Below are positions 1,382 through 62,489 of a DNA stretch of 64,000 bases, one piece after another. Below the pieces are notes generated by a model. The model had not been told where the DNA came from and searched no databases. It saw nothing but the letters and a program-made list of their open reading frames with translations. The stretch comes from Crambe crambe (lineage: Eukaryota > Porifera > Demospongiae > Poecilosclerida > Crambeidae): assembly GCA_963924555.1 (NCBI GenBank), contig OZ004587.1:2666001-2730000 (forward strand), written 5' to 3'. The stretch's first letter is position 1. Each line of letters starts with the position of its first letter. A program made the translations under genes and the position numbers.

Positions 1382-3221
1382 AATTATCAATAGCATTTGC
1401 AAGATCACTTCTTCCACAACTTCTGTATGCTTGCACAACATCGCATACGCAGGGCTTATTGATTGAATCTGCAGAATCAAGTGAAGAAGTAGCTACGTAT
1501 TTTGATGATAATTATAACATAAACTAGTAGGATATAGGCAATATAGACATGCATTCAAGCACCAGGAAACAAGTTAGTATCAACTGTTGCATCATAGCTA
1601 TTCTTAAACCAATCTATTTGTAGATACAGTCAATACTGATTGCATGGTATCAAAGGTAGCTAATAGCTAATTCATTAGCTAACTGTCAGTGTGTCTCCAA
1701 CTTTTTGAAAACTACTTCAAGGATGTAAGCTCCAGAGGTGTTGGAAGCAAGATTCGATTGGTCAGGCCCGAATTTGAAATGTAATCCCACAGACCACTGA
1801 ATCTCTATAACCGGCTCTGGGAAAACCCTCCGTCGGGTGAAAATTAAAAAAATTTTGTTATGGTAAAATTTATTATCTATGGCCCTTTGGCTCTTTATTG
1901 CGCAAATTTCAAAGCTATACCTTTTATGACGCCTGAGGAACAGCTCTTAGAAAGATCGAGGTAGCGTCCATTAGCGTTATTGTTTTTTCGAGAAAAGCTG
2001 ACTAAGCAACGTGAACATTATTTCCGGACATGCCCGTGGACTAGTAAATTGACGGTGGGTGGGGTTTCGAACTGTAGTTAGTAAGAAGCTAGTTTCTTGC
2101 CTTTTGGCTCGAGAAAGGTCCAACCGAAGCTCCGAGAAGAGAAGCAAGGTACCGAAGGTAGTGCAGATAGCTTAGTAAGTTCATATTTCCCAGCGCATAA
2201 GCTGGAAAGCCTGCCTAAAGTTCAATGAATTTCAGCCTGACTAGAATCTCCGTGCACGAAGCTTCAATGGCTGACTAGCTAACTTTAGCGCTTCATTTGA
2301 AGCCTTTGTACTTGTAGTCTGAGCTCCAAACTTCATCTGTGCTTTGTTCAAGGATCATATTTGTCATTTATGCTTAAAAAAAATTTTTGCCAAATTTTGG
2401 CACTGCCAACTAAACGTGCTCATATCTGATAATTGATTTTTGCGCCGGACGGAGGGTTTTCCCAGAGCCGGTCACATTGAGCATCTTTCTTTTATTTTTG
2501 ATTGCTATAGCTACTTAATAACCTTGTTTTCCCAAAAATATTGATCAGGCCTAGGCCTGACTGGCCTGGCCTGTTCCACTGCCTATGAGCTCTATCCACC
2601 CAGCTAAATTACATCCAAACCACACCCATCAAGACAATGATTTTCAGTTTATAAACATCGATTCTTGAGTTTGGTTCAGTAATGATAAAGTGGTTTTCTT
2701 GCACTTCTTGAGAACTCTGTTGAAAAAAGAATCATAGCAACACTCCACACCACTTCTAAGTTTGAGTGGACTGTTTGCTTACTGCATGCAGTTCATGCTC
2801 AAAATCAAAGCATGATATAGCTGTCTGGCCAAATCCAGGACAAACACCAGGACACAGGACAAAATCAACAAATCCAGGACTCTCCTGGACATTCCAGGAC
2901 AGTTGGAGCCTATTGTGTGTACTGTAGCTTTGTGTTGGACTAGCCTCTGTCTTATCAATATGTGCATGTGTTGCTGATCGGCCAGAGACTAGCTATATAG
3001 CTTTCATTGAACTCTAAAATTAAGGTTTAGAGTTTAAAGTTCTAACCATAATTATAATTATTCTCAAGCACTTACATCTGTCTATTGCAACCAGTGAGGC
3101 CGTCCCACACAATAACTAATTGAGCACATCGAATGTCGCTTGGACTTGCCGGTGGAATGTTTTGGGAGACGGTCACTGCAAGAGCACATGATAAAATCAA
3201 TCCTGCCAGAAAGATCTTCAT
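1382..3221 (-). pseudogene. decayed C6-TM-PY gene, exons 1 and 2
   Basis: Exon 1 (3076-3221) starts with the family signal peptide MKIFLAGLILSCALAVTVSQ and ends at a GTAAG donor. Exon 2 (1382-1468) lies between a CTGCAG acceptor and a GTAAGT donor. Both match the family, but each is 10 bases shorter than in its paralogues (146 instead of 156; 87 instead of 97). The exon 2 loss removes the first exon 2 cysteine and breaks the frame; the exon 1 loss lies just before the donor. Joined as in the paralogues, the frame meets a stop about four codons into exon 2. Exon 3 would lie left of the window. It is probably not a functional gene, unless other splice sites are used. Confidence 0.7.
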
Positions 3222-3548
3222 TTTTTTCTCGACGGCTAGAGTGAAGTGCTTGGATGATCAGTTAGAATCTCACCACAACTAGTTGCAACTAACTCATGTG
3301 AATACGCATGCGCAACCAACCGGGCAGTGCGCGCGGTATAGGGCGGAGCGATCATAATAACTTAAATGCATTCTATGTAGCTATTAGCTAGCTACATATA
3401 TTAGCTACAAATATTAGCGCAATGGAGCATCAGATTGACCATAGGTAGAAGTTAGAAAACTCAGCATTAAGCAGACACAAATTTGCGTCAGTATTATCAG
3501 TATTATACTGACAGTGTCTGCTTGTAATGCTGAGTTTATGCTAATTGG

Positions 3549-3630
3549 TTATGGATCATAGGTACCCATTGGAGTGGAGGAATATGTAGAATTGGAAGCA
3601 GTAGTAGATATTGCTGGTGATTCTGACTGG
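3549..3630 (-). pseudogene. fragment of a type III tail exon
   Basis: On the minus strand this reads a Ser/Ala/Thr-rich tail, QSESPAIS...STPMGTYDP, then a stop. It matches the tail at 51812-51905 (QSESPAIS...STPMGAYDP) with a six-base in-frame difference. The transmembrane part is absent here. It sits upstream of the decayed exon 1 at 3.2 kb, as the larger type III copy sits upstream of gene 5 exon 1, so both came along with a duplicated block. The plus strand is also open (ending ...GDSDW), but the family orientation favours the minus strand. Confidence 0.55.
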
Positions 3631-3866
3631 TAAGTGGTACACTGTAAAAATGAAAGTGTACATGTACTGCACACTATTACAATCAGTTTATAAAACCTCC
3701 AAGATAAGGACAACCTCCGAGATAAGGATAAAGGTCTTTTCCCCCGAGTGTCCTCTATTTGGAGGGACGTCCTATACTGTAAACTAATATAATGCTACTA
3801 AAGAATTACTGTATTTAACAAAGTGCAGTCAATCTGCGTGATACTTTCTTTCTCTTTAAAATACAG

Positions 3867-5660
3867 TTGGGATCCTTGCCAGCTTTGACAGCATTAGCCA
3901 TGGGCAGTGCAAACTATTTCATAACCAGCAGTTCACCATCGGCATCACCTCCTCCATCGTTTTTGGACTTCTCCCTAGGCTCTCCGGGGTTCGTCGGTGT
4001 CCTCTCAGCCCTCGCCCTCATTCTGGAAGTGTCTTTTATCATTATCCGGGTCCTTAACTTTGGATTTGTCAACTCCAACATGATGCCCTTCAGTATTATT
4101 GTGAGTTTCACAGATTAAATTTTCAGTTAGCCCATTTCATAAGCCACTCATCACTTGCATGAATAGTAAAATATTAGCTACTGTAGATGAATACAACAGA
4201 ATTGATGAACGCTTATGAATCATGTAAAATTGTTATGGCTTGTTTTCCATTTTATTGAAACATATGTAGCTAGCTAGTACTAGATGAATGCAACAGAAAA
4301 ATGAAAGCACCATAAAGTGCTAACCCTCTGTGCACACTATAATTGTGTGTGTTTGCAGATATTGTGATAAGGAAGAGTATTAAGTATTTTATTTTGAATC
4401 AATCATCTATAAAGCATTCCATACTGTTGAGCTAGCTAGCAGTATCTGTAGCTACTACAGATTCCACATTCTCATTATCAGTGCCTGCATGTAATAATAT
4501 ACTCTGAAGCTGTCGTAGACTTGTAATTAAAGATACTCCAGCTATATATCTATGAGATTTATGCTGTTGCTCTAATCAACTCACCCTGTAGTATAGCCTA
4601 GATGGAGTAGATAATGGTCAGCAGTACAGAGTGTGCATTATATGGATATAGGCTATAGTATACTACGGAGCTGGAATCGTGCCCTTCTTTTTAGAATAAA
4701 GCCAAAAATCCACTCAATTTAAACACTCAAGAGTATTTATTGTCTAGACATCGTTAAGACTGAAGTTGAAGCGTGATATAAAAGTGCTGCTGGCTCTGGA
4801 ACAGACAGACAGAGACAGACAGACAAACCGAGTACTATAACCCTTGCGCATGTGCAGAGGGTTAATAATCACTGTATGTAGTCTACACTTATTGCATGAC
4901 TGTAAAGTAAGGCTTAAAATGGATTTATTTGTTGTAGGCTACTAGCTAAATGGTCTGTTATTATTAACGTTCACTCCCTCCATAATTATACATGTAGATG
5001 ATTTTCTTTGAGCTCAACCTCGTTCTTGCCTACATTGCCGGGTCCATAGTTAATGGTATAACTGGCGGCCTCATCTGGTATCCATATTTCAATCTTCTCA
5101 CAGTTGCTGTCAACGTTGCTGGAGGAGCATTCTTTGCTACTTGTGTGAGTTATCTGAAATACAGCAGGACCTCACTAGTAAGACCACCCAGTATGGGACT
5201 GCCCAAATAACAAAGGTGGTGTCAGTTCTGCTAGTGTTATCATTGGGGGACAGAATATCAGTGGTCTTAGTATTGTGGTCATCATGAGGTGAGATTACAC
5301 TGGCTACTGTATTACAGAAACTAGGGTAATCAGCGAGTGAAGCAGTGAAAATGTACGAACTCATATGTCCCTAAGTGGCAGGCATGTAATTGCAGGAGTA
5401 CATGGAAAAGCACGTCTATAATGACTACATTTGTGTCAACATTTCCCCCCGCATAATATATTTCACATTGTTGATTCTTCATGATAAAATTGTAGCTATA
5501 CCCCTATTTTGCTTATGTAAGTAAGTAACCACATTATGATATTCATGCTTCCTGATTAGTTATTGACTAGTTAGTTGTGGTTGCTGTTAGTATTATTTTT
5601 GTAAAGAGACAGGTTAGACGAAGTGTGATGGCACTGAATAGATCAGGGGTGGAGGTTTAG
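3867..5660 (+). CDS. MARVEL-like four-helix membrane protein (5' end missing)
   Basis: Two internal exons with good splice sites are visible. The first (3867-4100, 78 codons) follows TTTAAAATACAG and ends at GTGAGT; the second (4998-5144, 49 codons) follows ACATGTAG and ends at GTGAGT. Both are phase 0. Joined, they give the end of a helix (PALTALAMGSANYFIT), a Ser/Pro loop, helix 2 (GFVGVLSALALILEVSFIII), a short loop, helix 3 (MIFFELNLVLAYIAGSIV) and helix 4 (NLLTVAVNVAGGAFFATC). This four-helix layout is that of the MARVEL family (MAL, plasmolipin, CMTM, synaptogyrin type), which works in vesicle and apical membranes. The last exon is uncertain: a start at 5613 gives VRRSVMALNRSGVEV and a stop at 5660, and a start at 5591 gives YYFCKETG and a stop at 5617. 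I could not place the first exon. The intron 4101-4997 holds nothing recognisable. Confidence 0.5.
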
Positions 5661-6290: not shown

Positions 6291-6328
<38 letters not shown>

Positions 6329-6847: not shown

Positions 6848-8236
6848 TTACTGCTGGGGAGGGTATTTCTGTGGATTAGCATAAGGTGGAGGGGCCATCT
6901 TTTGTAAGGTGTTAGGGCAGGCCTGCTGTGATGATGAAGTCACAGCATAGGGAGCTGCTGACATGGTGGCAGTAGTGGTGGTGCTGCGAGTCCTGCGGCG
7001 ATAACATACCACAATGCTGATGATAGTGATGGGAACGACAATTAGGAGAAGGAAACCAGTAACACTCAAACCCACTATAAGTCCAATAGGGGCTACTTGA
7101 TCACATACTGCAGAGAGATGACAATTATGATTCATTATAATAATCATTAATTCCTACAGAACTGCATAGATTAACTAACTTATTTCTGTACAACATAAAT
7201 GAATGCTACCATGTACTAATAGTGTTCTTTGAGGCATCTAAGATAATTTTGCAGCTACAAAGAAAATTTTCCAATTGATACTTGGCCCATGCCTTCACCA
7301 TTCAAGGTAGCTATTGCAATCAGGTCAGTTCGAAGTTTGAACTAGTTAAAACAGTACCGATTAATACGTAGTAAGGACAGTGGATCGGACTTAACTGACC
7401 ACTGACCTAATGAGATTCTTTCTAGAATAGCTATGTAACTATCTCAGTTACTTAAATCACGATATCAATTCAACATGGAATTATTTAAAAGAAAAGTAGG
7501 GATGGCTGTGTGCAGTTCAAAAAAGTTCAGCAACAAGTGAACTTTAGTCAAGTAACCCCTTACCCATCACCTACTATGAGCCAACTATTCCTACTTCACT
7601 CCCTTTATATCTATGTCATGGGAGTGAAGTAGGAGTAATTGGGGGTGACTTGATTGAAGTTCACTCACTTGTTACTGAACTTTTTTGAACCGCACACAGC
7701 CATCCCTACTTATCTTTCCTTTACTTATATATCTGATGTAATGCTCTATTTATAGGCAACTAGATGCTGTGATCCTGCTATCAAAAGTTATAAAGTCATA
7801 AAATAGTGTAGCTATGTAGTTCATTGGAGGTTTCATCATAATAATTATTGTATGAGGCGAAACGAATCTGATCTGGAAGGACTAATGCTTTCTATACAGA
7901 TTACCATTAACCTAAATTTTTATAATTTTTAAGGCCTTTACTGATATGTACCTGATATACTGTTGCACCAAGGCTTGATTCATAACCAGACTAGTGCCTA
8001 GGGTTTATGCTCTGAGCATCGAGAGACCAAGAGAGAAAGGTAATGATAGATTTGCTAGTCAGTTGTGAGGTCAAGGTCAAAGAATCATGTGTACAAGGTG
8101 GGGCATAAAAATGTCTGCCACGTTGTAAGTTGAAAAGTAGCAAGTTAGAAAAATGACATGCTATTTTGAACATGTCGAGTTAAAGGTAAAAAATTATAGC
8201 ACAGTCAACTTTGAGTAGTGAATCATTTCTGAAATA

Positions 8237-8269
<33 letters not shown>

Positions 8270-11200: not shown

Positions 11201-14200
11201 TACAACCACCCACGCACTGTGCTTTAACCCGCCCACACAGGGCAGAGACACAACTAGTTGGGCGGTGACCTAGCAGGGCAGCTAGGAGCAAACTGGCATG
11301 CAAAATGCCAGCCCACACTGTGAAACAGCTTGGAAGTTCTGCCTTTTATGCTGGCTACAATCTGAAAAGCTTGTTGGGTTTGAACGTGGAATGTGGTCAA
11401 TGAATATCATTATAAACGTGCACTGTGGTGAATGAATAACATTAAAATTCAACCAAACAAGCTTTTCTGAGAGTGGCTAGTATAAAAGATAGAACATTCT
11501 AGCTGGTCAACAGCGAGCTGGTGTTTTGTGCGCCGCCTTCTTTGATCTTCAGACTGGGCACACTTATATCCCTCGCACTCGGGATATAACTATATATATT
11601 ATATATCTACTTTTTCACACATCCATTGTTTGACTGTTCCATATTCCTAAAATCATTGATGTAATGAAGGGATTATTTATGGATAGCACAACTGCAAGGC
11701 AGCACAATCCTCATGATGTATTGCTCCCCTCACTCGGTGCCTGGACTTCACAAATTTGTCTGTGAAACTCCTGGATAGTTGCTTCTTTATCTTGAGACAC
11801 CTTCTGAGCAGTGATAGTAGCTCTCCTAAGACATATTTTGTAGCGAATTTTAAAACAGGTAAACCATCCTAGCAAACACTTGATGATATTATCAGGATGC
11901 GTAGAATCTAAAATTTGCCTGGCAAGCAGGTAGTGGAGCAAAACTCTTTATTCAGTCATGTGTAGATACAGAAATGACAAATGATACAGCTGCTTTTGAT
12001 TACCATGTAGCTATCTAGGGTCAAAGGTCAAGTTGCACTTATAGAACTGTTAAATAAATATGCCTAACAAAAAAACATGCACTACTAGTAGGGTATTAGG
12101 TGTTGTTGGGTCAGAGGTCAAGCATTCTTCTGTAGCTACATGGGAATCCCCCAGCCACAAATTGTGCCTCCCACTGGGGAGAGGAGATCACATACACTTA
12201 CGATTGATCATGATTCGTGAATTCTTAGTCACAACAGCCACTAGCTAGCTATATATAATAGACTTATAGTGTTCTCCCCAGCATACCTTAAGCATGGGAT
12301 CTTCAAGCACATCTTCCCTTTGATGTGTTCAATAGAATGCCGATCAACCACAAATATCCTTTGATGTGTGAAACCTTCATGGAGAACACTGTAGAATCCT
12401 GCTAGACAAAATTATGTCTGGACTCGCATAATTACAAGCCAATTTTATCACCAAAATAGGAATTATAACCTGTGAATTTTTTGATGCCTTTTACAACCCG
12501 TTGTTTATCAAACCATCCCTGTGTGATGGGCATTAATCACCAACAGTTGCCTTGTTGGTGTTGATAAACTGCAGATTTGTAGACTAATATCAAGTTTGGA
12601 AATGTAAAAAAAAAAAAAAAAAAGAGGTCATGCTTGAATATATGACAGAATGTCCCCTTTTGGCCACTCTATGGTTGACTCTGAGCCCCACCTGCTGGAA
12701 TTTCACTTACAATTATCAAAAGCATATGCAAGATCACTTCTTCCACAAATTTTGTATGCTCTCACAAGATCAGCAACACAGGGCTTATTGCTGCAAATGG
12801 ATTGAATCTGCAGAATCAAGTGGAGAAGTAGATGATAATTATAACTATAGTAGGATATAGACACTAGCTATAGACATGCATTCAAGCACCAGGAAACATG
12901 TCTATCCACTGGTGTTTGAAATTTGAAAATTGAGAAAGTTGATTCAAGGTGCCAGGTGAAGCACATACTCTGGTTTTTGTGGTGTATCAGCTAATAATAA
13001 TTAATTTTGGGTCACAAAATCATCAGTTTAATCTACATACCTGAAAAAATGCTAAGCCAAAGGAACAACATGGCTAGCTAGCTAATTAGAATCAGCTAAT
13101 TAGTATCAACTGTTGCAATCCTATTAAACCCTTAAACCGATCGATTTATGTTAACAAGATACAGTCAGTACTGATGGTATCAAAGCTGGCAGGTAGCTAG
13201 CTAATTTAATAAAAGTGCATAAGACAACATGAATAGCTAGCTGTGTACTGTAGCATTGCTGATCGGGGAGACTAGTATAGCCATTTTGATTAGTTTTGCA
13301 TGCCCCACCCTCCAGAAAAATCGGAAGGGTCTGGTGTATTATGTATTTAATCTAAATTAATATCATTATAACTCATAAGTGCTTGCACATCAAAAGTAAT
13401 CTGCAGCTGCTTGTACGGTAGGCCGCAAAAAAAAGTTCCCGTTCCGTCCACGTAGAACTGGCGTTGAACGCCTTGACCGTTGCCGTTTTCACACAGTCCC
13501 CCATGCGTTTAATTTTCTACACCGTTTAACATCAAGCGTTGCACGCCTGTTCAACGTTCACGAAGAAACGGTAAGAAGCATAGCCATGTACGTACGTAGG
13601 TGAAAAAACGTTATTACAAAACGTAACCCTAAGCCTAAAAGCTTATAGAACTATGCGTAGCTATCTCTCTAGGCTGACTAGCTATCTCTCTAAGCTGACT
13701 AGCTTATGTTGGCACTAGAGCTAGCTCTGCACTTACAGCTAGCTATAGTATAACACCACCCATGTTTATGACGATGTTCTACGTATTGTCAGATTTGTCA
13801 GTGTGATGAAACTTTATAGATACAATGAAGGCAGAAGAAATTGTACCACCACTAGCATGCACGAGTCGATATCTGTGCATTATTAGCTACGCAGAGCTTA
13901 AGGCCTGCCTCGGAGACTGCCTCAAGTCATCTCACTGTCGATCTGCTGTTGAGCTGCATGCTTTCATACCGTAAAAACGAGTAGTTTCGAACTCAACTAC
14001 GTTTAATTGGGCCGTTCAATGCAAAGCGCTATAATGCCTGCTTTGTGTTTATACAGCGTTCGCATATGGTTTTTTAACAACGCTTGAGCGTTCTACCGAT
14101 GTTGTACGGCAATTTTTTATGATGAAGACCGTAAATAAGGTCAAGAAAGTAATTCCTTCAATTTTTGAAAGCCCAGAGTACCTTCTGGATACACCAAGGA

Positions 14201-17200: not shown

Positions 17201-17494
17201 CAATTTGGGTATAATTGCATTCGAAACTAACTGTCTAAAATTGCACTCCATTTCGCCTCGTGCAATTTACCTAGCCAGTTTCTCATGCAATTAGCTATAC
17301 CCAAATTGCACTCAAATTAATTATTCTCAAGCACTTACATCTGTGTAAAATTGTCCATGACAACCACTGAGGTCATCTCGCACAATAACCAATCGAGCAC
17401 ATCGAAGCTCGCTTGGACTTGCCGGTGGAATATTTTGGGAGACGGTCACTGCAAGAGCACATGATAAAATTAAAGATGCCAGAAAGATTTTCAT
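6848..17494 (-). CDS. gene 1: secreted-type six-Cys single-pass membrane protein, type I PPPY tail
   Basis: Predicted exons are 17339-17494, 12711-12807 and 6848-7107, giving 170 residues. Residues 1-20 (MKIFLASLILSCALAVTVSQ) form a signal peptide. The ectodomain holds six cysteines spaced C-x12-C-x11-C-x4-C-x10-C-x12-C. One transmembrane helix (about 92-119) is followed by a YRRR stop-transfer, a Thr-rich stretch, AAPY, and PPPY at 157-160. PPxY is the known ligand of WW domains, as in NEDD4-type ubiquitin ligases. Donors are GTAAGT, acceptors end TGCAG, and phases (0, then 1) match all paralogues. The two large introns (4.5 and 5.6 kb) are filled with MITEs and transposase relics. The architecture recalls Shisa and WBP1/VOPP1 adaptors, but the cysteine pattern is not one I recognise; function is unknown. 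Confidence 0.78.
7497..7708. mobile_element. TAGGGATGGC foldback MITE, copy 1
   Basis: The ends are inverted: TAGGGATGGCTGTGTGCAG at the left, and its near reverse complement at 7675-7708, where CCGCACACAGCCATCCCTA is readable. Both ends carry the dinucleotide TA, as expected for a Tc1/mariner-type non-autonomous element. The arms contain the inverted words AACAAGTGAACTT and AAGTTCACTCACTTGTT. There is no open frame. It lies in intron 2 of gene 1. Confidence 0.75.
8236..8268. repeat. (ATG)n microsatellite
   Basis: About ten ATG/TGA-phase triplets run in tandem inside intron 2 of gene 1. There is no sign of coding use. Confidence 0.9.
8393..8417. repeat. AGAGAGT hairpin motif
   Basis: CAGAGAGTACTATCGTACTCTCTGAT is a perfect stem with a short loop, next to CCATCCCTACT. 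Variants of the same stem end repeats at 1115-1136, 11136-11160, 18963-18985 and 34788-34810. See the matching finding. Confidence 0.7.
8910..9090. mobile_element. TAGGGATGGC-family foldback MITE, copy 2
   Basis: This is a second copy of the element at 7497-7708, sharing ATGGCTGTGTACAGTTCAAA at the left and GAACTGCACACAGACATCCC at the right. It is slightly degraded at both termini. The regions 7720-7990 and 9100-9420 around the two copies are also duplicates of each other, so the element was copied as part of a tandem duplication inside intron 2 of gene 1. Confidence 0.7.
9916..11165. mobile_element. composite repeat with 72-bp terminal hairpin, copy 1
   Basis: It begins with a foldback unit whose arms (9916-9987 and 10080-10152) are near-perfect reverse complements containing CATGTAGGGTTAGCCTGTAC. 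After it follows ~560 bp of sequence (excluding a nested insertion) that is also found after the related unit at 18227-18490, ending in the AGAGAGTGC hairpin at 11136-11160. An open frame at 10801-11121 (106 codons) lies in this repeat; the second copy (18620-18930) is not open, so I do not call it a gene. Confidence 0.7.
10338..10776. mobile_element. TAGTGGCGG/CCGCCGCTG element with GAGTG target duplication
   Basis: The ends TAGTGGCGGATTTAG and CTAGATCCGCCGCTG are inverted repeats. GAGTG stands directly on both sides (10333-10337 and 10777-10781), and the paralogous repeat at 18608-18612 has a single GAGTG without the element. This is a clear insertion with a 5-bp target duplication, consistent with a short-TSD hAT family. 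A 30-bp direct duplication lies inside (10507-10570). It has no coding capacity. Confidence 0.8.
13400..14121. other. gene-free intron sequence of gene 1
   Basis: No gene or recognisable element is seen. The base composition is less AT-rich than the neighbourhood, and words such as GGCGTTGAACGCC recur in altered form, suggesting old repeat material. Confidence 0.4.
14122..14670 (+). pseudogene. unrecognised coding-like remnant
   Basis: A 57-codon frame from ATG 14122 to TAA 14293 reads MKTVNKVKKVIPSIFESPEY and onward with balanced codon use. Two overlapping frames (14165-14437 and 14401-14670) continue in other phases, one with an acidic segment STDEDNNW. This looks like the body of one broken reading frame, but I recognise no domain. 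It lies just upstream of the THAP-like fragment on the same strand and may belong to the same transposon. Confidence 0.25.
14831..15292 (+). pseudogene. THAP-like zinc-finger fragment (P-element-type transposon relic)
   Basis: The frame reads CRNSKSKDPNISLHRFPAGK followed by TMRRWMEIMGL. Cys, then HRFP, then a tryptophan about a dozen residues on, is the order of the THAP domain (C2CH zinc finger of P-element-like transposases). The first Cys of the pair and the final C-x2-H are not found, so the domain is truncated. The frame is broken by an inserted element (about 14983-15262); after it, GGGCCTGAAGGGACACTGG resumes the frame (PEGTLVKFAS). AGTGGGCC occurs on both sides of the insertion. Confidence 0.45.
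14980..15262. mobile_element. CAGTGGCGGATCCAG element inside the THAP relic
   Basis: The left end CAGTGGCGGATCCAG faces an imperfect inverted right end CTATATCTGCCAGTG. AGTGGGCC lies at 14972-14979 and again at 15259-15266, which may be an 8-bp hAT target duplication if the true ends lie slightly inside. It is non-coding and belongs to the same broad group as the elements at 10338, 30866 and 33736. Confidence 0.5.
15334..15358. repeat. 25-base poly-G run
   Basis: An uninterrupted G tract lies immediately next to a coding-like Cys-rich relic (15360-15495) and cuts it off on one side. Confidence 0.9.
15360..15495 (-). pseudogene. Cys-rich zinc-finger-like fragment
   Basis: The minus strand reads HCLVCGRRLCKAKGGRASVY, then QCCDYQNDICLHLVWMSAET. 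A CxxCgxxL-KAK start followed by a spaced Cys/His pattern resembles the N-terminal zinc-binding segment seen in some RAG1-like and transposon-derived metazoan proteins; I cannot assign it further. The frame ends in the poly-G tract. It lies in an intron of gene 1 near other transposon relics. Confidence 0.3.
16578..16894. mobile_element. TGTAGGGATGAC foldback MITE, copy 1
   Basis: Arms of about 100 bp are inverted: TGTAGGGATGACTATTGCTC at the left, and the complement of the GGAAACAAGGGTAGGGA stretch near 16850-16894 at the right. The inner ends also carry CCCTACAT/ATGTAGGG. A/T-rich flanks (GGAAAAAACATTTCC and GAAATGTTTTTTCC) extend the symmetry to roughly 16547-16927. A second copy is at 36181-36496. 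Confidence 0.75.
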
Positions 17495-38594: not shown

Positions 38595-41500
38595 TTACTG
38601 CTGGGGAGGGTATAGTGTGTATTTCTGTTGATCAGCATAAGGCGGAGGAGCCTTCTCTTGTAAAGTGTTAGGGTAGGCCTGCTGTGATGATGAAGAGTTG
38701 TAGGTCACAGCATAGGGAGCTGCTGACATGGTGGCAGTAGTGGTGGTGGTGTAAGTCCTGCGGCAACTGGAAATACAGCATACCACGATGCAAATGATAA
38801 TGATGGGAAGGACAAATAGGAGAATGAAACCAGCAACACTCAAACCCACTATAAGTCCAATAGGGGCTACTCGTTCGCATACTGCAGAGAGAGGACAATT
38901 ATGATTCGTTATAGCTAATAATCGTTGATTTTGCATGGATTAATTTATTTCTGTACAATATTATAATGAATGCTACCATGTATTAATAATAAGTAACAAT
39001 TTTATATTTACAATTTTTGAGACCTCCAAGATAGCTTATTAATTTAGCAGCCACGAAGAATTTTTTTCCAATAACTACACTATCGTTACTTGGCCAATGC
39101 CTTTCACCATTCAAGGTATTTCAAGCAGGCCAAGTCAGTTTGAAATTTGAACCAGCTAAAACAGTATACCTGTTAGTAATAAGGTACTGTCCATAGGGGG
39201 AGTCGGATCGGATTTGACTGACTTGAGATTCTTTCTAGTATTGCTATGATCTCAGTTACTTAAATTATAATTATGTATCACAATATCAATTCAACATTAA
39301 TTTTAGCTATAGCTAATAGTAGTATGTAATAAACAGTTCAAGTTCAAAGTCACTCTTATCACAGGTGATTATACCTCTAAACTTTACCTATTAGACAAGC
39401 AAATGCATTTACAACTACAAAATCACTTTTATCCCAACACAAAGCACAGGTGTAGTGGTCACAAAATTTAATGAGTAGACCATAAATTTCCAGCAGCTAT
39501 TTTCGATGGGATTATAGGGAAAAGTAGCTACCTGGCCCATATTTTGCATGCAACTAGCTATGAGATTAGTGCAGGGGCTTAGACATGACCAAAAATTTGG
39601 GGGGAGGGCTGAACTTCGAACTTCCTGGAATCATGCAAAATACTCATCATGGTGAATACTGAAGACTGTAGCTATTACAAAAATTTACCAAAATACTTTA
39701 TCCTATCATAATAAGCTATTGTTTAGTTTACACTGTGTCATTGATGACTGCAAGTACGCGTACAATTGCTTCAGTGCTGAAAACGATCTCTCTGAGGTAG
39801 CTGAAGTAATTGGTATAGTTAAGTATAAACAAATTAACTGGAAACACTTCCTCACTCATCATGGCTTCACAAATTGTATAAACAGAAGTAACTTTCTTTA
39901 CAGATGGTGTACCCTTCTTAATAACATCACAGAGAAGAGGCAGTTGTCGGGTTAAATCTGACACACTTATATCTCATCCAAAGCAGGATTGTTCAAACTC
40001 TTTTAAATTGTTCTGAAAATCTTCATTATTGGCTGCTTTCACCAAGGTATGCTCTATACATCTTGAATGTGCTGTTTTTCAAATCGTCTGACCAACTCAC
40101 ACATGCCTCATAATAAAGACTGCGATACTATTCTCTTGCTGTGGTGTGAACATGTACTGTCGTACCTTGGAGGTCGTCATCTTTGTCTTAGTAACTCTGG
40201 CTCACCAATGTTCTCAGCTCTGTAGCAAGGCTGACAGTTTTGTCATAGAAGCAGTTGAATTCTTCTTCTGATCTTACTCGTTTGAAGTACTGCTTTGCTA
40301 ATAACAGTAGCTAAACAAAGTTTCTGACATTGTGTCAGGAACATGGAAGAATGCAATAGAATCTTCACATACTTCGTAGTCATCACTGACCCAGCGAATC
40401 GATAAGTTAAGCTGTTCAGTACTACAGACATCTGTGGCCTCATCTGCTATGATGGAAAACTATGCAGGTCCGGTCACTTTATGCATAGTAGCCAAGAGAG
40501 TGCGCAAATGACTTTGACCCATAATTGTCAACTGTTCATTGATTGATTCAGGGCAAGTATATTTATTTTCCTTTAAGGACATCATTACTATGGCTCCAGG
40601 CTAGAAGTAGTTGATACAGATTTCCCTGCTTACTTGAATGGCCTAAAACAGCTATTCCTTGATGACTAAGATAACGTAAACCCTCAAGCTGATACAAGAG
40701 CCCGAGTCTACGTTTCTCCTGAAGTTTTTGAAGCTGGGAGCTTAATTGGCTAGCAACAGTAGGCTTTCCCTGAGCTGGGGGCAATCCTCAACTTGAGCAT
40801 CTACACATGATTCAATCACCTTATGATCTTCTAATAACTTTTCTTTCTTGCTCTGCCAAATGCTGAGCAAAGATGCCTGCCTTTCAGACATGACTGCATG
40901 CATACACTGACTAAAAGCAGCTGCTCTACACTCTACATACAGCTAGTTGTAGAGGTCTTAAAGAAACCACATAACATGCAGGCAACCCTAATTGCCTGGA
41001 CACATTTGTAATAGCTACATTTCTACACCCTTAGGTGATTTATAGAGCTCTATCCAATGAGAATTGACACCACTAGTATCATACAGCATAGTAGAGCATT
41101 TGCTACTTCAGAACTAAATTAGGGGGGCTGAGCCCCCCCACTTCAAAATTAGGGGGCTCCATCCCCCTGCCCCCCTATTTCTAAGCCACTGTAAGTGAAC
41201 AAAGTTATAAATAGCCTTTAATTTTTATAACTGGCAGTCTCATAAGAAAAGTAAAATATGAATCAAAGTTACTTTATTCCACCTCATAGTAGACTAGTAG
41301 TTACGTGCAAAAAATGAGCCCATGCAGTAGAATATTCCATATCTACTTCATTACCATTTCCTATTGAATATAATATGCTGGAAATTTATGGTGTAGTAAC
41401 ACCATTCATCTGTGACCACTATTTTGAGTGTTACAAGTCATTGACTGAAAGCCTAATATTAGGTGTTGTTGGGTCAAAGGTCAAGTATTCTGTAGCTATG

Positions 41501-43367
41501 GGAACCCCCAGCAATCACAAACTGTGCCTCCCACTGAGGAGGGGAGATCACATACACTTGAACGATTGGGTGAACCCCTAGCTATATAGCTATATATCAA
41601 TGTCTAGACTAATTAAGTACATAGTAGTGAGTAGGAACTTCCTTGAAAGTGAGTCATGTGGTTAATTAATGGCAGAAGCCAAAGTGTGATTTGGCTGGGT
41701 AGAAGGTTTATTTGTACATACTTCACAAACCATGAAAGTTAGCTATTTTTCATTTCTTTTGTGTCTCCTATACACACTATAACCATCCATGGACTCTATT
41801 TACCACTAGCTATTTAGCTCTATGAATCACCCGTGGTAGTGCGGTGGCCAAGAGAGGACATTCAAACATAACTTATATATAAACACTATACTTTGTAGTT
41901 TGTCAATTACCAAACCAGTCGACTTGTGCGTGCCCATCACATCCACATACACACATACACAGCTGAGCTGCATAACTTCAGAACGTATTCAGGAGTTCAG
42001 TACAGTTTATATAGTGGCAAACACAAGCTAGTGTATTTCCAAATTCAAACACTATTATTACTAAATACAACCTGTGACTTTATTAATGCTGATTTTTATA
42101 ACCCGTTGTTTATCAAACCATCCCTGTGTGATGGGCATAAATCCTCACAGGTTTGGTGTTGATAAACTGCAAGTTTGTATCCAGAAATTGTTAAATTTGG
42201 AAATGAAAAGTCATGTTTGAAATGTTCCCTCTTGGCCACTCTATGGTTGACTCTGGGCCCCACCTGCTGGGACTTTACTTACAATTATCAATAGCAGCTG
42301 CAAGATCACTTCTTCCACAACTTCTGTACGCTTGCACAACATCACGTACACAGGGCTTATTGCTGCAAATGGATTGAATCTGCAGAACCAAGTGAAGAAG
42401 TAGCTATTTTGATGATAATAATTATTATAACATAAGCTAGTAGGATATAAGCAGCATTCAAGCACCAGGAAACAAGTTAGTATCAACTGTTGCATCATAT
42501 AGCTATCCTATTAAACTCTTAAACCAATCTATTAACAAGATATCAAAAGGTAGTTAATAGCAACATTGATTTAGCTAGCTGTCAGTGTGTCTCCAACTTT
42601 TTGAAAACTACTTCAAGGACGTAAGCTCTACCCACCCACCTACCACACAGCTAAATCACATCCAAACCACACCCATTAAGTTTGTTATTAGCTATAGAGA
42701 ATGATTTTTTAAACATCAATTCTTGAGTTTGAGATTGGTTTGAGATTGGTTCAATTCAGTGACGAATCGATAAAGTAGCTTTTGTGCACTTCTTGAGAAC
42801 TCTTTGTTGAAAAAAGAATCATGCATGTAGCAACACTGTAAAAATGAAAGTGTGCATGTATTGCACACTAAATTGTCCCAATAAACACACTCAGAACTGT
42901 GTATTGATTGGGACAAAATTGTGTGCAATAAAAACTACAGTGAACACTCCACACCACTTCTAAGTTTGAGTGGACTGTTTGCTTACTGCATGCAGTTCAT
43001 GCTCAAAAATCAAAGCTTGACATAGCTGTCGGGCCAAATCCAGGACAAACAGCAGGTGCATCCAGGACACTGGACTAGCCTCTGTCTTGTATCAATTATG
43101 TGCATGTGTTACTGATCTGCCGGGGACTAGCTATAGCTTTCATTGAACTCTAAAATTAAGGTTTAGAGTTTGAGGTCCTAACCATAATTATAATTATTCT
43201 CAAGCACTTACATCTGTGGAAATTTGTCCACTGCAACCACTGAGGCCGTCCCGCACGGCAATCCGTTGAACACATCGAATGTCGTTTGAACTTGGTGGTG
43301 GAATGTTTTGGGAGACGGTCACTGCAAGAGCACATGATAAAATCAATCCTGCCAGAAAGATCTTCAT
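38595..43367 (-). CDS. gene 3: six-Cys single-pass membrane protein, type I PPPY tail
   Basis: Predicted exons are 43212-43367, 42283-42379 and 38595-38881 (179 residues; introns 832 and 3401 bp). The signal peptide equals that of gene 2; the mature end starts NIPPPSSNDIRCVQRIAVRD. Exon 2 reads IQSICSNKPCVRDVVQAYRS and onward. Exon 3 gives LCERVAPIG, the helix GLIVGLSVAGFILLFVLPII, CCISSCRR, AAPYAVTYNS and APPPYADQQKYTLYPPQQ. The frame is intact and all six ectodomain cysteines are kept. A 1.62 kb hAT element is inserted in intron 2 (39572-41191) without touching splice sites. Confidence 0.8.
39572..41191 (-). mobile_element. 1.62 kb hAT transposon in intron 2 of gene 3
   Basis: The ends CAGGGGCTTAGACATG and TATTTCTAAGCCACTG are inverted. 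TTAGTG precedes the element and TAAGTG follows it (one mismatch). The empty paralogous sites read GGTTAGTGAATAAAG (about 27343) and GGTTAGTGAACAAAG (about 63899), so the insertion happened after the block was duplicated. Minus-strand transposase remnants fill its centre. G- and C-rich runs lie just inside the right end. Confidence 0.85.
39716..40891 (-). pseudogene. hAT transposase relic (DUF4371/ZMYM-like type)
   Basis: The start is MSERQASLLSIWQSKKEKLL (ATG at 40889-40891). Later blocks read LEGLRYLSHQGIAVLGHSSK, FSIIADEATDVCSTEQLNLS with IRWVSDDYEVCEDSIAFF, and near the end TIPITSATSERSFSALKQLY with AYLQSSMTQ. The D-E-T-D segment and the final SATSERSFSALK block are the catalytic-region and C-terminal dimerisation motifs of hAT transposases of the DUF4371 group. 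Several frame breaks and stops separate the blocks and the middle is short, so it is inactive. Confidence 0.8.
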
Positions 43368-44681: not shown

Positions 44682-44682
<1 letters not shown>

Positions 44683-46189
44683 GTAATTTTATAGGGAATG
44701 GGTTAATGGGGAACATAAAACCACCCCATTTGGAGTTGAAATGTTATGAGTAAAGGAGTCTTTTTAAAAAAACAACTATGTAGCTCAGAGTCAAGGAGTA
44801 GTTACACTGCACCAACACAACCAGCTTAATCTGATGGTCCCATTTAATTAAACCGCGATGACATGCCCCCCCCCCCCCCCTCCTTTTTTTCTTCCTGTAT
44901 CTTTGATTCTAAGTTGTGAGTATACAACTCATGAACAAAAAAAAATCTTTAGGTAATTTGTTGATAATATAGTTTCTCATCAGATGGTTTTGCTCAGACT
45001 GATGTGGGCAGGGCCATTGTGCCATTATCTTGTTCAGTGGGACAACCACAGCAGTTGATAGTCAGAAGTGATGTGGCCAAACTGAGTCCTGTAGGTAAAC
45101 TGATGGTAGTATTGGCCATTGTGCCATTATTTTGATATTCCTATTCAGTCATTTTCTTAGAAAACCACAGGACTCGTGATATAGTCAGAAGTGATGCAGT
45201 ACAGAAATTCGATTAAATGGCCAAATTCTGTAGGTATAGATACGTACAAGTGCACAACTACAAAGTCACTCTTACGTAGGCCAGTGTTAATGATATTCAT
45301 AATTATTTCGGGTCAACCACCCACATTGGAAAATTACCACAGCCATTAGCTATAACCTGGGCAGCTGCAGGATGATTTTATGGCTGGAAAATGGGATATT
45401 TTAGGCATATGAATAATAATGGTATAATGTAGCTACTGCCTGCCCCATGGTGAGGCAAAATCCTGACCAATGTCATTAGCTAACACTGGCCTTATTTTTT
45501 TTATTTATTTATATATTTTTTTGTAGAAATAATAGCTACTTGTGATAAAAGTCATGTGGTAAAAGTCATATTCAACATGAGGCTAATTGATTTCGACGAT
45601 GTGTTGTGTTGTAACACATCTTGTGGAATTTATACCTTACTGGGTTATGTTGGGTCAAATGTTAGTCCAGTCAAGCAATTCCAGCCAGTCCACTATTACA
45701 CAAGATGGCTATAGGGAACCCTTGCATGGCTGGATTTGCACATTCATACATAGATATAAAACCCAGGTTTTTATCCTTGGTTTGCACCTACATGTATGTT
45801 GAGATAATCCTGCTAGATAGCAACTCACTGAATGCATTGGAGATCAGTTGCAGATGGTGGTGGTACTTGGAAATAGCTAGCTAGCTACTGCTGCCATGTA
45901 GCTGTAGTACAGAGCTGCTCCCACCAGAAGGTCTTCATCTCTTTACTACGTATTATACCTGTCACTATTTTGGAGTGTGACAGTCACTCTTTTTGGAATA
46001 TTGTCACTATAGCTATATCACTCTCTTTGTTGCATGTATCACTCAGTCTCTTTATCTTGAGTAAAGGTCATTTTTTAGCATAAACTCAAGTGATGAGAAA
46101 TCTATATTATTGCTATCTATAGCCATGATGTGGTTAATGTTTATTGTTGCTCGTTTGGTTCTTTGAAGTCATTGTATAACAAACTTATG

Positions 46190-46433: not shown

Positions 46434-46565
46434 TTATGTGCTATAGCGAGGGTCTCTTGAATCTTTAGCTTCTCGACTATTTAGCTATTAGAGTAATTAT
46501 TATCAATTCAAGCGCATGAGTTAGCTAGTGTTTTTAGCTTCAGGTTGGGCCCATTGCTAATTTAG

Positions 46566-48830
<2,265 letters not shown>

Positions 48831-49503: not shown

Positions 49504-50429
49504 CTAAGCTTCAAGTTGCTGTGCTTGTGCAGGACATGGTGCAGAATATGGTGCAGGATAAGCTGCGTAATTGTTATAGGAAGGAGGTGGTGCCTGCTGT
49601 AGGACACTTTGTGTTGGATCTGGTGCTGGATTTTTTGATGCAGTCATGGAAGTGGTTGACATAACAGTGGGAGGTGCTGTGTGATGAATATTACTGGCAA
49701 CACTAGATGTAGTGCGTCGGTGACTGGAAGAACCAGCAGCTCCAGCAGCACAGAATGCCACAATGCAAATAATGATGATGGGAAGACCAATTAGAAGGAA
49801 AGCACCTGTTATACTCAATCCGATGATCAAACCAATCGTGTTTCTAGCAGAGTTAGAAGTTCTTGAATTGAAGTCCGTAACTGGATTGAAATTTCTGCTG
49901 CAGACTGAAAAAAATCATGGCATTACAAATGCACCTCTGATAAAGGACGTCATCAACAAAATTAATGAGGACGAACAAAATTATTTTTGGGAATAGTCCT
50001 CCATTTCTACTCAATATTTGGGAATAGTTGATTAATCTATACATGTACTGGGAATATAGTCGTCCATTTATTGATGAGACCAAACATGTACATGTATGGC
50101 CTCTACTACATGTACATGTATGGCATCAATAATTAGAGGATTAGTCCCAAAAATAGCATGTGGCTTCACCAGATAGCTACCATTATAGAACAATTAAGCC
50201 TTTTTATTGCAATGCAGAGGTTATCAACATCCTGTCACTCTTAAGGATGACTAGCTAAGATTTAGATTTTTCTCCTTCAGAGTAGCTATCTGAGGATTTG
50301 GATGTATATAAATTAGCTCACCTTTATCCCAACACAAAGCACAGGTGTAGCTAGTGGTTACAAATGAGTAGTGTTACTAGCTACACCATAAATTTCCAGC
50401 GACTTTCAATGCATACCCTCCAAGTACCC

Positions 50430-50460
<31 letters not shown>

Positions 50461-51619
50461 CCTCTGGGACTGTCCCTGATTTGCACTTACCAGAATCTAT
50501 CCCTCACAGATTTGTATAAGGCTGGTGTTTGTCCTGGAAGAGTCTTAATGTTTCATTGTATACATAAGCACTGCCCATCACCATGCACACATGCAGGCTG
50601 ATACATAACTCCTAAACACAGTAGTTCAGTATACATGCAGTGTACATAGTGGGAGCATGGCTTGAGTAGGTTTCTTGAAAAATGCCAGTGCATGTACATT
50701 TCCAAATTCAAACATACTAAACACAACCTGCGACCTTTTTAATGCTACTTTTTACTACTTGTTTGTCAAACCATCCCTGTATGATAGACATGAATTCTCA
50801 CTGGATTGGTATTGATAAACTGCATTTGTATCCAGAAATTGACAAACATCAAGTTTGCATGGAAATGAAAAAAAAAAAAGAAGTAGCTAATTAAAAAAGT
50901 TGTGTTTGAATATAGCTACGTAAATTAATATTATGTGACAGAATGTCCCCTTTCGGCCACTCTATGGTAGAGTCTGGGCCCCATGCACCTGCTGGAACTT
51001 TACTTACGATTATTAATAGAAGTTGCAAGATCACTTCTTCCACAACTTCTGTACGCTTGCACAACGTCACGTACACAGGGCTTATTGCTGCAAATGGATT
51101 GAATCTACAGAATTAAGTGGAGAAGTAGCTACTATTTTGATGATAATTATAATTATAGTAGGATATAGGCACTATAGACATGCATTCAAGCACCAGGAAA
51201 CAAGTTAGTATCAAGTTGCATCATACCTACATCCTCAAACCGATCAATTTGTATTTACAAGATACAGTCAATACTAATTGCATGGTATCAAAGGTAGCTA
51301 ATAATTCTTAGCATTGATTTAGCTAGCTGTGTACTGTGGCTAGTTGGACTAGCCTCTGTCTTATCAATATGTGCACGTGTTGTTGATAGGGGACACCTTC
51401 ATTGAACTCTAAAATTAAGGTTTAGAGTCCTAACCATAATTATAATTATTCTCAAGCACTTACATCTGTGGAAATTAGTCCACTGCAACCACTGAGGCCG
51501 TCCCGCACGGCAATCCGTTGAACACATCGAATGACGTTTGAACTTGGTGGTGGAATGTTTTGGGAGACGGTCACTGCAAGAGCACATGATAAAATCAATC
51601 CTGCCAGAAAGATCTTCAT
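49504..51619 (-). CDS. gene 5: chimeric six-Cys membrane protein (type I ectodomain, type II tail)
   Basis: Predicted exons are 51464-51619, 51008-51104 and 49504-49904 (217 residues; introns 359 and 1103 bp). Exons 1-2 are type I: MKIFLAGLILSCALAVTVSQ, NIPPPSSNVIRCVQ, then IQSICSNKPCVRDVVQAYRS. Exon 3 is type II: LCSRNFNPVTDFNSRTSNSA, helix GLIIGLSITGAFLLIGLPII, SSSHRRT, then QQAPPPSYNNYAAYPAPYSA and the C-terminus QAQQLEA. PPSY keeps a PPxY motif near residues 190-194. The acceptor of exon 2 ends CTGTAG instead of CTGCAG but remains valid. The frame is intact across all joins, so the mixture is compatible with a working gene. Confidence 0.75.
50433..50457. repeat. 25-base poly-C run
   Basis: A C tract in intron 2 of gene 5. 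The homologous place near 47990 reads CCTCCAAGTGTCCCGGAACC without the expansion. Confidence 0.85.
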
Positions 51620-51811
51620 TTTTTCCTCTCCTTCTCGACGGCTAGTGTTAAAGTGGAAGTGGTTGGATGATCAGGGCGTTAGAATCTCGCTTGTTGCAAC
51701 TACCTGCGAGAATGCTGCGAGGCCAGATAAAATACTCATGCGATCGCGAATACACATGCGCAGAGTAGCTAGTCTGGCGTAGCGGCGACCCTTTAATATG
51801 CGGAGGGTGGT

Positions 51812-52690: not shown

Positions 52691-52699
52691 ACAATTATA

Positions 52700-54266: not shown

Positions 54267-54903
54267 CTAAGCTTCAAGTTGCTGTGCTTGTGCAGGACAT
54301 GGTGCAGAATAATATGGTGCAGGATAAGCTGCATAATCGTTATAGGAAGGAGGTGGTGCCTGTTGTAGGACACTTTGTGTTGGATCTGGTGCTGGATTTT
54401 GTGATGTGGTCATGGAAGTGGTTGACATAACAGTGGGAGGTGCTGTGTGATGAATATTACTGGTAACGCTAGATGCAGTGCGTCGGTGACTAGAAGAACC
54501 AGCAGCTCTAGCAGCACAGAATGCCACAATGCAAATAATGATGATGGGAAGACCAATTAGAAGAACAGCACCTGTTACACTCAATCCGACGATCAAACCA
54601 ATCGTGTTCCTAGCAGAGTTGGAAGTTCTTGAATTGAAGTCCATAACTCGATTGAGATTGAATGTTGGTGGATTGAAAGTTGCTGGATTGAAATTGAAAG
54701 TTGTTGGATTGAAATTGAAGGTCGTTGGATTGAAATTCCTTGTTGTTGCGGAGGACTGACTGCTACAGACTGAAAAAAATCATGGCATTTAATACAAATG
54801 ACTACAGTCTCTGATAAAGGACATTCAGTACAAATGAGGACAAACATGTCAACATACGTACAAAACAACCTCCAAAGAGGACAACTTCTCTACAAAGGGA
54901 TCC

Positions 54904-54999
<96 letters not shown>

Positions 55000-55966
55000 C
55001 GCTAGACTGCATCCTGTACGGATATCAACAAAGCCAAGTGAATACATAAGAATATTATCGGGAATAGTCCTCCATATTTTAGGGAATAGCTAGTACATGT
55101 ACTTTATATTTTTGGGAATAGCTATTATTATTATGTGTACACATGTAGTCCTCCATGTATAGATGAGGCCATACATGTACATATATGGCCTCTACTACAA
55201 GTATGGCCTCATCAATAATAATATTATTATACCAAAAATAGCATGTGGCTTCACCAGATAGCTACCATTAGAATAAACCATAAGTATTTTTATTGAGGTA
55301 ATTATCAACATCTTGTCTCTCTTAATAAGGATGACTATAATAATAATTGAATTTTTTTCTCCTTCAGAGTAGCTATGTTCAGCTATCTGAGGGTGCATTG
55401 GATGCATAGCTATTAGGTCAAACTGCTGAAGTTTGAGTGCATTTCAAAAATGTAAGCTCACCACTAGCACAAAGTTACATATGTAATGTAGCTAGCTACA
55501 GAAGCTATTAATTTTGTACAGGAGGAGTCAATTCATGATTGATTTCATGTTATTAGCTTATAGCTATCTAAGTAGCTATCTATAACTGTACAGCTTACAA
55601 TTGGAAATTGCAATTGAAAGATCACTTCTCCTACAAGTTCTATAAGCTTGTATGATGTCATTCAAACATGGTCTGTTCCTACAAACCATTTCAACCTGCA
55701 TAAGGAAACAATGGCAAAAAAAATTAGCACCAAATTGCAACCAACTGTTCAGACAAACATCAAAGGGTCCCAGAGCTGCAAGGTTGATATTAGATCATTT
55801 TCCAGGGACTTACAGGTGTAGAAGATACACCAGTACACCCATTGAGGCCACCCCGGAGAGCAACTCGCTGAATGCATTGGATATCAGCTGAAGATGGTGG
55901 TGGAATTTGAGAAGTAGCCACTGCTAGCAAAAAAAATAGAACTGGTCCTGCCTGTAGGATCTTCAT
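54267..55966 (-). CDS. gene 6: type II six-Cys membrane protein with repeat-expanded stalk
   Basis: Predicted exons are 55814-55966, 55599-55695 and 54267-54769 (250 residues; introns 118 and 829 bp). Exon 1 reads MKILQAGPVLFFLLAVATSQ, then IPPPSSADIQC. Exon 2 reads VEMVCRNRPCLNDIIQAYRT. The six-cysteine spacing is exact. Exon 3 starts FCSSQSSATTRNFNPTTFNF and repeats FNP-T/A-TF-N several times before MDFNSRTSNSARN, so the stalk between the last cysteine and the helix is about 30 residues longer than in gene 5. The helix is GLIVGLSVTGAVLLIGLPII; the tail has SSSHRRT, APPPSYNDYAAYPAPY and QAQQLEA. The repeat is in frame and the gene looks intact. Confidence 0.75.
54908..55002. repeat. (TG)n plus (CG)n microsatellite
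   Basis: About 42 TG units run into six CG units. It lies in intron 2 of gene 6, at the same relative position and with the same right border (GCTAGACTG) as the longer run in gene 4, so it is an inherited, length-changed repeat. Confidence 0.95.
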
Positions 55967-57625: not shown

Positions 57626-57629
57626 AAAG

Positions 57630-61769: not shown

Positions 61770-61856
61770 GTTGGTTGACATTTAAGAGCATTGGCTCGCT
61801 TGAATTTATCTTGCACATGCGCAAATTCTACTGGTCAACCAACCTGAAAACTTCAG

Positions 61857-62004
61857 TACACCGATTTGCAGGTCGGTTGTCACAAAAAAGGGTCGTCAAA
61901 TTTCACGCATGCATGTTCATCTCAATTCAAAACCAATAGAATTCAACACGCATGCGTGTAAATTGACGACCTTTTTTGTGACAACCGACCTGCAAATCGG
62001 TGTA
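61857..62004. mobile_element. TACACCGATTTGCAGG foldback MITE
   Basis: Arms of about 50 bp (TACACCGATTTGCAGGTCGG at the left, its complement at the right) enclose a ~45-bp centre. Both termini carry TA, suggesting a mariner-type non-autonomous element. Confidence 0.8.
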
Positions 62005-62202
62005 GCTATTTTGACATTAAACATTGGGCATGCGCAATTTTTAACGTACGTACCATAGTCCATATTGACATGACAAGTGTGTGCGCGCGCGCTCGCTCGC
62101 CAATTACATATGTATTATTATTATTGTAAGTTAAACACATAGCTACACGTACAATGAACAAGCTAAAATCTCAAGTCAATTCATTGTTCCATAACTGTAA
62201 TG

Positions 62203-62489
62203 TTACTGCTGGGGAGGATATGGTGCGTATCTCTGTGGATCAGCATAAGGCGGGGGAGCCTTCTCTTGTAAGGTGTTTGGGTAGGCCTGCTGTGATGATG
62301 AAGAGTTGTAGGTCACAGCATAGGGAGCTGCTGACATAGTGGCAGTAGTGGTGGTGGTGTGAGTCCTACGGCGACTGGTAATACAGCATGCCACGATGCA
62401 AAAGATAGTGATGGGAACGACAATTAGGAGAATGAAACCAGCAATACTCAAACCCACTATAAGTCCAATAGGGGCTACTTGTTCACATA
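62203..62489 (-). CDS. gene 7: six-Cys membrane protein, exon 3 only (partial at window edge)
   Basis: Exon 3 of a type I member. After a CTCTGCAG acceptor it reads (L)CEQVAPIG, the helix GLIVGLSIAGFILLIVVPIT, CCITSRRR, a Thr-rich stretch, AAPYAVTYNS and APPPYADPQRYAPYPPQQ, then TAA. It is nearly identical to gene 2 exon 3 and has no frame break. Exons 1 and 2 are not found between here and 64000; since introns in the family reach 5.6 kb they should lie beyond the right edge. Confidence 0.75.

Follow-up and report, generated by a model that had tools for sequence, protein, structure and literature searches.

The closest described counterparts of the genes analyzed here, a tandem family of six-cysteine genes for predicted membrane proteins in a 64,000-nucleotide stretch of the genome of the sponge Crambe crambe (C10:2666001-2730000, hereafter the window), are the STMC6 proteins, a set reportedly made up of Shisa, WBP1/VOPP1, CYYR1 and TMEM92 and said to go back to Pei and Grishin in 2012. 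Like the six-cysteine genes, these proteins combine a signal peptide, a small cysteine-rich ectodomain, one helix and a PPxY tail, and they are proposed adaptors of NEDD4-type ligases. The six-cysteine genes differ in the lack of CC pairs in copies A-G, in a three-exon plan with an exchangeable exon 3 and in the existence of sister genes whose ends resemble glycosylphosphatidylinositol (GPI) signals.

In the accessible part of PMC5578492, the Shisa-like cysteine arrangement is given as C*C*CC*CC, CYYR1 and Shisa are placed in STMC6, and Commissureless and PRRG are described as short single-pass proteins whose PY motifs bind Nedd4. The Commissureless profile touches gene F of the window at E 0.016, below the cut-off and over the helix and adjoining tail only, and the Commissureless ectodomain, unlike that of the six-cysteine genes, has no cysteines according to the same part of that source. 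STMC6 proteins bind and regulate NEDD4-like ligases, as stated in the accessible part of PMC11399591. A further comparison is offered by the large tandem SRCR expansions of the sponge Amphimedon, described in the accessible part of PMC10855680, in which PPxY is not mentioned.

The best explanation of the locus, to which we give roughly even odds (about 50%), is a multigene family that encodes small cell-surface proteins and is assembled from exchangeable exons; exon 3 would set the anchor and a PPxY tail would couple the protein to ubiquitin ligases. Compared with an earlier reading of the window made from its letters only (the sequence-only reading), new elements are a GPI-like class of genes, the similarity in kind of the tail exon to one in SRCR genes, the hybrid nature of gene C, the damage to copy H and the loss of PPxY from gene D.

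Gene plan and exon conservation in the window

Exons were located by similarity searches inside the window and across the genome (143 Mb, 119 contigs), and all models were then checked for splice sites, phase and cysteine gaps. The letters A-H denote window copies, I, I2, J and K genes of a second cluster on C10, and P-S gene models on C11. The minus strand of the window carries six complete genes of three exons each (B, C, D, E, F and G), together with two copies that cross its edges (A and H). When spliced at 30240/29113 and 29017/26638, gene F gives an open 179-residue protein with a signal peptide, six cysteines, a helix and a PPPY tail. Exon 1 encodes the signal peptide and two cysteines, exon 2 three cysteines, and exon 3 opens with the sixth. 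All seven copies A-G have GTAAG donors, acceptors ending in AG, an exon 2 of 97 nucleotides (nt), phases 0 and 1, and the exact pattern C-x12-C-x11-C-x4-C-x10-C-x12-C. Gene G is more diverged and its exon 3 is shorter by 27 nt, a multiple of three. Read-through of the exon-2 donor in most family copies gives Asn-Cys-Lys, with a cysteine one residue ahead of the spliced sixth cysteine, because the T before the donor GT makes TGT.

The sequence-only reading had proposed a tandem three-exon, six-cysteine family of eight members, with invariant cysteine spacing in six of them, and its observation is real and understated. The plan of gene F recurs in the other five complete genes, and the spacing is borne out in every copy from A to G. 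Its count of eight covers the six complete and two edge-crossing copies, but H is broken in exons 1-2, D lacks PPxY and C is a hybrid. It had also held that gene finding based on open reading frames would miss the family, which agrees with the program-made list of such frames (110 amino acids or more), where no exon 1 or 2 appears and exon 3 is listed for several copies only.

Copies A, C, E and F have identical signal-peptide sequences in exon 1. The remainder of exon 1 differs by 2-8% between them and exon 2 by 2-7%, while exon 3 differs by 4-9% among A, E and F, and none of these exon comparisons shows an indel. In contrast, the introns and flanks of A, C, E and F differ by 6-33%, or by 1% in the single case of the A-F 3' flank, and gaps occur in every one of these comparisons. 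On the basis of this contrast, the gene plan in the window is more than chance.

A different explanation is that the cluster reflects recent duplication with little function, a decaying tandem array in which some copies are open through youth. Copy H has lost 10 nt from exon 1 and 10 nt from exon 2 and its frame runs into stops, with an open exon 3 carrying PPPY outside the window to the left, near C10:2664840-2664580; gene D retains six cysteines but has a tail out of frame relative to B, with PPxY lost by the frameshift; and further relics are broken as well. Near-identical repeats fill the introns, and the ratio of non-synonymous to synonymous substitution rates (dN/dS) of the ectodomain is about 0.4-2 between copies. 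The values are mixed: comparisons with G and with copy I of the second cluster give 0.4-0.8, and those among the most closely related copies give 0.6-2 or no defined value. However, exon length and frame are preserved despite gains and losses of sequence in the introns, the splice signals are intact in A-G (7/7), and the exon-2 motif is kept over four contigs. We consider simple decay unlikely and favor the family of exchangeable exons. Positive selection on the ectodomain is not claimed: the A-F pair shows seven non-synonymous and no synonymous changes in the ectodomain versus 4/7 in exon 3, a contrast that other pairs do not repeat (A-E, 6/3 versus 14/7).

Gene C is a natural exchange of the tail exon, joined within intron 2. 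Its exons 1-2 match E, A, F and G, its exon 3 matches B and D, and the exchange is recognized because the type I match over exons 1-2 changes to type II inside intron 2, which is type I-like to about 50318 (piece 50411-50318) and type II-like from 50289 on. A stray 89-nt piece of the same intron (50542-50454) resembles gene D and is type II-like. Just upstream of gene C (51648-52088) lie decayed, stop-containing helix exons that resemble exon 3, and a similar one is found on C10 near 2738.6 kb (about 72667 in window numbering), in the interval from gene A to the copy at C10:2739591.

Two classes of exon 3 and a related exon in SRCR genes

At E<=0.1, the gene F protein matched the genome at exon level 77 times, on contigs C5, C9, C10, C11, C17 and C21; the weakest of these matches are untrustworthy. 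A uniform scan of about 252 kb of genome sequence for AG-exon-GT arrangements with the exon-2 motif identified 26 open exon-2 copies on four contigs (14 on C10, eight on C11, three on C9 and one on C5), with a consensus close to xxxIC-x4-C-x6-AYR-x-CGR-x-D and motif identities of 41-84% across the four contigs. Five further helix-type three-exon genes are present on C10 at 8.18-8.21 Mb. The cysteine gaps of J and K are 12-13-4-10-12, and the exon-1 boundary of I2 is unsettled because the donor drawn for that exon lacks GT. This leaves the final three gaps of I2 untouched, and these gaps (4-10-12) are constant in all 16 gene models (A-K and P-S). In the copy running down from C10:2875343, intron 1 is only 63 nt and, being in frame and free of stops, leaves exons 1 and 2 as one open frame, identical to the stored protein P0003.

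On C11, exon 3 belongs to a second class. It reads [F/V/A]-C-N-G-S-IMFHAVPMILALMAATAISFIL-stop or a near variant in the eight copies read and spans 27-28 residues, with the sixth cysteine at the usual place and an acceptor in the same phase as in helix-type genes. All eight have a hydrophobic end with no cytoplasmic residues and no helix and PPxY tail; the variant at 6690984 reads VCCNSS. A GPI signal usually consists of a small residue, a short spacer and a hydrophobic end, with no cytoplasmic tail, and this layout was recognized by eye in 8/8 copies. The C11 proteins are apparently lipid-anchored, as their exon 3 looks like such a signal. It is possible, if doubtful, that this exon is instead a tail-less transmembrane end or the remnant of a secreted form: the GPI assignment draws on sequence features alone, and the hydrophobic end is short and starts seven residues past Asn-Gly-Ser. 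What speaks for a GPI signal is that small residues (N, G, S) precede the hydrophobic stretch in every copy and that nothing follows it in seven of the eight, which end in ...FIL, the remaining one ending in FIH. Ephrins A and B also have homologous ectodomains in GPI-anchored and transmembrane versions; the likeness is confined to the two anchors, with a different cytoplasmic motif and a sequence relation neither looked for nor expected.

Models P, Q, R and S have open frames in all three exons, as does a further C11 copy, on L049 (donor GTAAGT, by eye). The exon-1 frame of the C11 copy at 6675922 ends in a stop, and exon 1 was not found within 320 nt for the copy at 6690984 or in the stretch examined for 6605101. 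A tree of 17 ectodomain rows places all five GPI-like ones on one side of a single branch with support 100/99. The strong divergence of types I and II stressed in the sequence-only reading is partly upheld: the two differ, with 49-56% ectodomain identity (against gene F), but by less than the GPI-like class, whose ectodomains share 30-41% identity with gene F.

The helix-type exon 3 also has relatives elsewhere. Its type II-like form matched exons at C10:8.26, C21:3.70-3.72 and C3:8.88 Mb and on C5, and four such exons have SRCR exons upstream on the same strand (C10:8259.8, C10:8263.6, C3:8875.6 and C21:3705.9 kb), with Pfam SRCR at E 2e-8 to 1e-16 in the seven upstream exons scanned. PPxY is present in three of these four helix exons, and for the exons inspected by eye the nearest fitting acceptors are phase 1. 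When helix and tail composition were each kept apart in 1000 shuffles per pair, no shuffle reached the real score in any of six pairs. Direct comparison with composition adjustment likewise matched J and B to SRCR-gene exons, with J against C10:8259.8 kb giving 45% identity over 127 residues (E 5e-12). Because Pro-rich tails can converge, this likeness depends mainly on the helix part.

Sponge SRCR receptors resemble the six-cysteine genes in being tandem and multi-exon, whereas the ectodomains are unrelated by Pfam, with no SRCR match in scans of six-cysteine proteins; at exon level, what the two have in common is the kind of last exon. No paper joining SRCR with PPxY was found in the open-licence literature, where absence proves little. 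Since C11 ectodomains carry another exon 3 and SRCR genes end in a similar helix and PPxY exon, ectodomain and tail are separate modules. For the same two reasons a PPxY tail is not a defining mark of the family, although the signal peptide, the helix and, in 11/12 helix-type gene models, the PPxY named in the sequence-only reading are all present. The helix exons at C5:7930.5 and C10:8175.2 kb have a cysteine near the start, as in six-cysteine genes, and no upstream exons were found for either. The span C5:5341501-5344101 contains a further helix and PPxY exon, with a long simple repeat of Ser and Leu ahead of it.

Homology searches and the proposed coupling to ligases

A single-sequence search of about 5.8 billion proteins gave no match at E<=1, and alignment searches of the same collection returned five proteins (P0001-P0005). 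P0002 and P0003 are open frames of this genome (C11 near 6669112 and C10 near 2875343), P0005 is the exon-1 frame of window gene D, P0001 resembles C11 exon 1, and P0004 differs from the copy at C10:2739591 by one residue, in exon 2. As these are this genome's own or near-identical frames, none is an independent homologue. Lineage specificity is not claimed, the share of animals in the collection being not established. The ectodomain is absent from the profile libraries searched, with no Pfam match over cut-off in the 15 members scanned (15/15), and no solved structure was convincingly matched in a sequence search (best E 0.091, to a photosystem subunit, with the full profile; best E 1 with the ectodomain profile). 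A likeness to the death fold was treated as chance, a Death profile having reached E 0.0032 in one of 15 ectodomains and in none of 10 re-scanned.

Could these proteins be divergent Shisa/STMC6 adaptors that steer NEDD4-type ligases to other receptors? The layout is the same, with six cysteines outside and PPxY inside, and the single helix and PPxY tail of that set occur in 11/12 helix-type models; the described regulation of NEDD4-like ligases by STMC6 proteins (PMC11399591, accessible part) would fit. The Pfam WBP-1 profile touches three of 11 members at E<=1 (best E 0.015), over helix and tail and below cut-off (best 16.3 bits versus 28.1). Across the genome, however, WBP-1 gave two sub-cut-off matches, on C8 and C12, and none at six-cysteine loci. 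Pfam Shisa_N (PF13908) had no genome match at E<=1, exon by exon, in a six-frame search that could miss an exon-split domain, and no match in scans of six-cysteine proteins. Genes A-G do not show the arrangement C*C*CC*CC, as their gaps are 12-11-4-10-12 and no cysteines are adjacent; a CC pair does occur in the divergent exon-2 copy C5:3254205 and in the C11 exon 3 at 6690984. With an ectodomain outside Pfam and sister copies wholly tail-less, we regard this origin as very improbable. Membership in Shisa/STMC6 is not shown, given the lack of adjacent cysteines in A-G, the unmatched Shisa_N and the sub-cut-off WBP-1, in keeping with the earlier caution against claiming Shisa homology; the six-cysteine proteins may nevertheless work like those NEDD4 adaptors. 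No report joining Shisa, cysteine and Porifera was found in the open-licence literature.

Genome profile searches identified at least four loci with WW and HECT matches on the same strand within a few kb (Table 1), and the supposed PPxY partner therefore exists in the genome. The PPxY motif might instead serve another WW protein (YAP-like, WWOX-like or MAGI-like) or structural clustering, with the tail as a scaffold. Most of the 34 WW matches in the genome do not adjoin a HECT match, and further Pro/Tyr repeats are abundant in the tails. Nothing here discriminates between such partners, but single-pass PPxY proteins with known partners mostly use NEDD4-type ligases (PMC11399591 and PMC5578492, accessible parts), and we judge the alternative to have a low probability.

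Under the favored explanation of ligase-coupled surface proteins, exons 1-2 and the first codons of exon 3 would, once transcribed, specify one small disulfide-bonded ectodomain, probably helical, that may bind a ligand or partner. Exon 3, entered in phase 1, would determine the anchor, either a transmembrane helix with a Pro/Tyr-rich PPxY tail or, on C11, a GPI-signal-like end, and the helix and PPxY exon may be a cassette used by SRCR receptors too. In helix forms, PPxY would bring in a WW-HECT ligase of the NEDD4 type, and the receptor or its bound cargo would then be ubiquitinated and undergo endocytic sorting, while GPI-like forms would display a like ectodomain uncoupled from the ligase. 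Ligase binding is here predicted from the PPxY motif, and ubiquitin-driven sorting is what we infer from it in turn. The coupling of receptors or adaptors to WW-domain ligases put forward in the sequence-only reading is, as a whole, partly supported.

Several points weigh against this explanation. Decay in H, in the tail of D and in exon 1 of the C11 copy at 6675922 implies that part of the cluster may be non-functional, and ectodomain dN/dS near or above 1 in several of the closest type I pairs fits relaxed constraint or diversification. A low-confidence fold model of an unspliced read-through (mean predicted local distance difference test, pLDDT, 59.6; predicted template modelling score, pTM, 0.51) contains helices only, and its 50 Foldseek matches at E<=10 include none at <=0.001, with CARD domains leading at E 2.1. 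The SRCR-gene exon C10:8263555 has no PPxY in its open frame, gene F exon 3 (type I) fails to reach E 1e-3 against two SRCR-gene exons at C10:8.26 Mb, and the link between six-cysteine and SRCR exons passes through type II-like copies. Finally, all of the support comes from genomic sequence.

We further propose, tentatively and with less confidence than the family itself, a modular system in which one phase-1 helix and PPxY plug-in exon would couple unrelated ectodomains (six-cysteine and SRCR) to a shared ubiquitin-ligase route, GPI-anchored six-cysteine proteins would act as uncoupled or decoy partners, and new combinations would arise by intron recombination, as in gene C. If true, an early-branching animal diversifies its receptors through one ligase-coupling exon behind various outer domains, with one outer domain on two anchors, which would provide a testable account of one down-regulation route common to many otherwise unrelated receptors.

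Feature coordinates and repeats

Table 1. Exons of the six-cysteine copies in window numbering, and WW-HECT loci in contig positions
Feature	Position	Strand
Gene A exon 3 (last Cys, helix, PPPY tail)	62203..62489	-
Gene A exons 1-2, past right window edge	70632-70477, 69651-69555	-
Gene B (type II) exon 1, signal peptide and two Cys	55814..55966	-
Gene B exon 2, 97 nt, three Cys	55599..55695	-
Gene B exon 3 (last Cys, long stalk, helix, PPSY tail)	54267..54769	-
Gene C (hybrid) exon 1, type I	51464..51619	-
Gene C exon 2, type I	51008..51104	-
Gene C exon 3, type II (helix, PPSY)	49504..49904	-
Gene C intron 2, stretch where match switches from type I to type II	50289..50542	-
Gene D (type II) exon 1	48678..48830	-
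Gene D exon 2	48456..48552	-
Gene D exon 3, tail frame-shifted relative to B, without PPxY	46636..46958	-
Gene E exon 1	43212..43367	-
Gene E exon 2	42283..42379	-
Gene E exon 3 (PPPY)	38595..38881	-
Gene F exon 1	30240..30395	-
Gene F exon 2	29017..29113	-
Gene F exon 3 (PPPY)	26352..26638	-
Gene G exon 1	17339..17494	-
Gene G exon 2	12711..12807	-
Gene G exon 3 (PPPY)	6848..7107	-
Copy H exon 1, broken by 10-nt deletion	3076..3221	-
Copy H exon 2, broken by 10-nt deletion	1382..1468	-
Decayed type II exon 1 with stops	45786..45869	-
WW-HECT locus, four WW	C21:4.6996-4.7033 Mb	
WW-HECT locus	C19:1.075-1.079 Mb	
WW-HECT locus	C19:2.130-2.135 Mb	
WW-HECT locus	C17:2.885-2.893 Mb	

Several repeats accompany the genes of the window. 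A tandem repeat of about 69 nt occupies 21004-21458, where an open minus-strand frame encodes a 23-residue Arg/Glu-rich repeat, and a second tandem repeat, with a 70-nt period, lies at 22226-22794. Long (CA)n-like microsatellites adjoin type II genes at 47342-47639 and 54897-55106. Intron 2 of gene F contains an inverted repeat (27954-28629) with 135-nt arms that are 95% complementary and 406 nt apart, which looks like the end pair of a mobile element.

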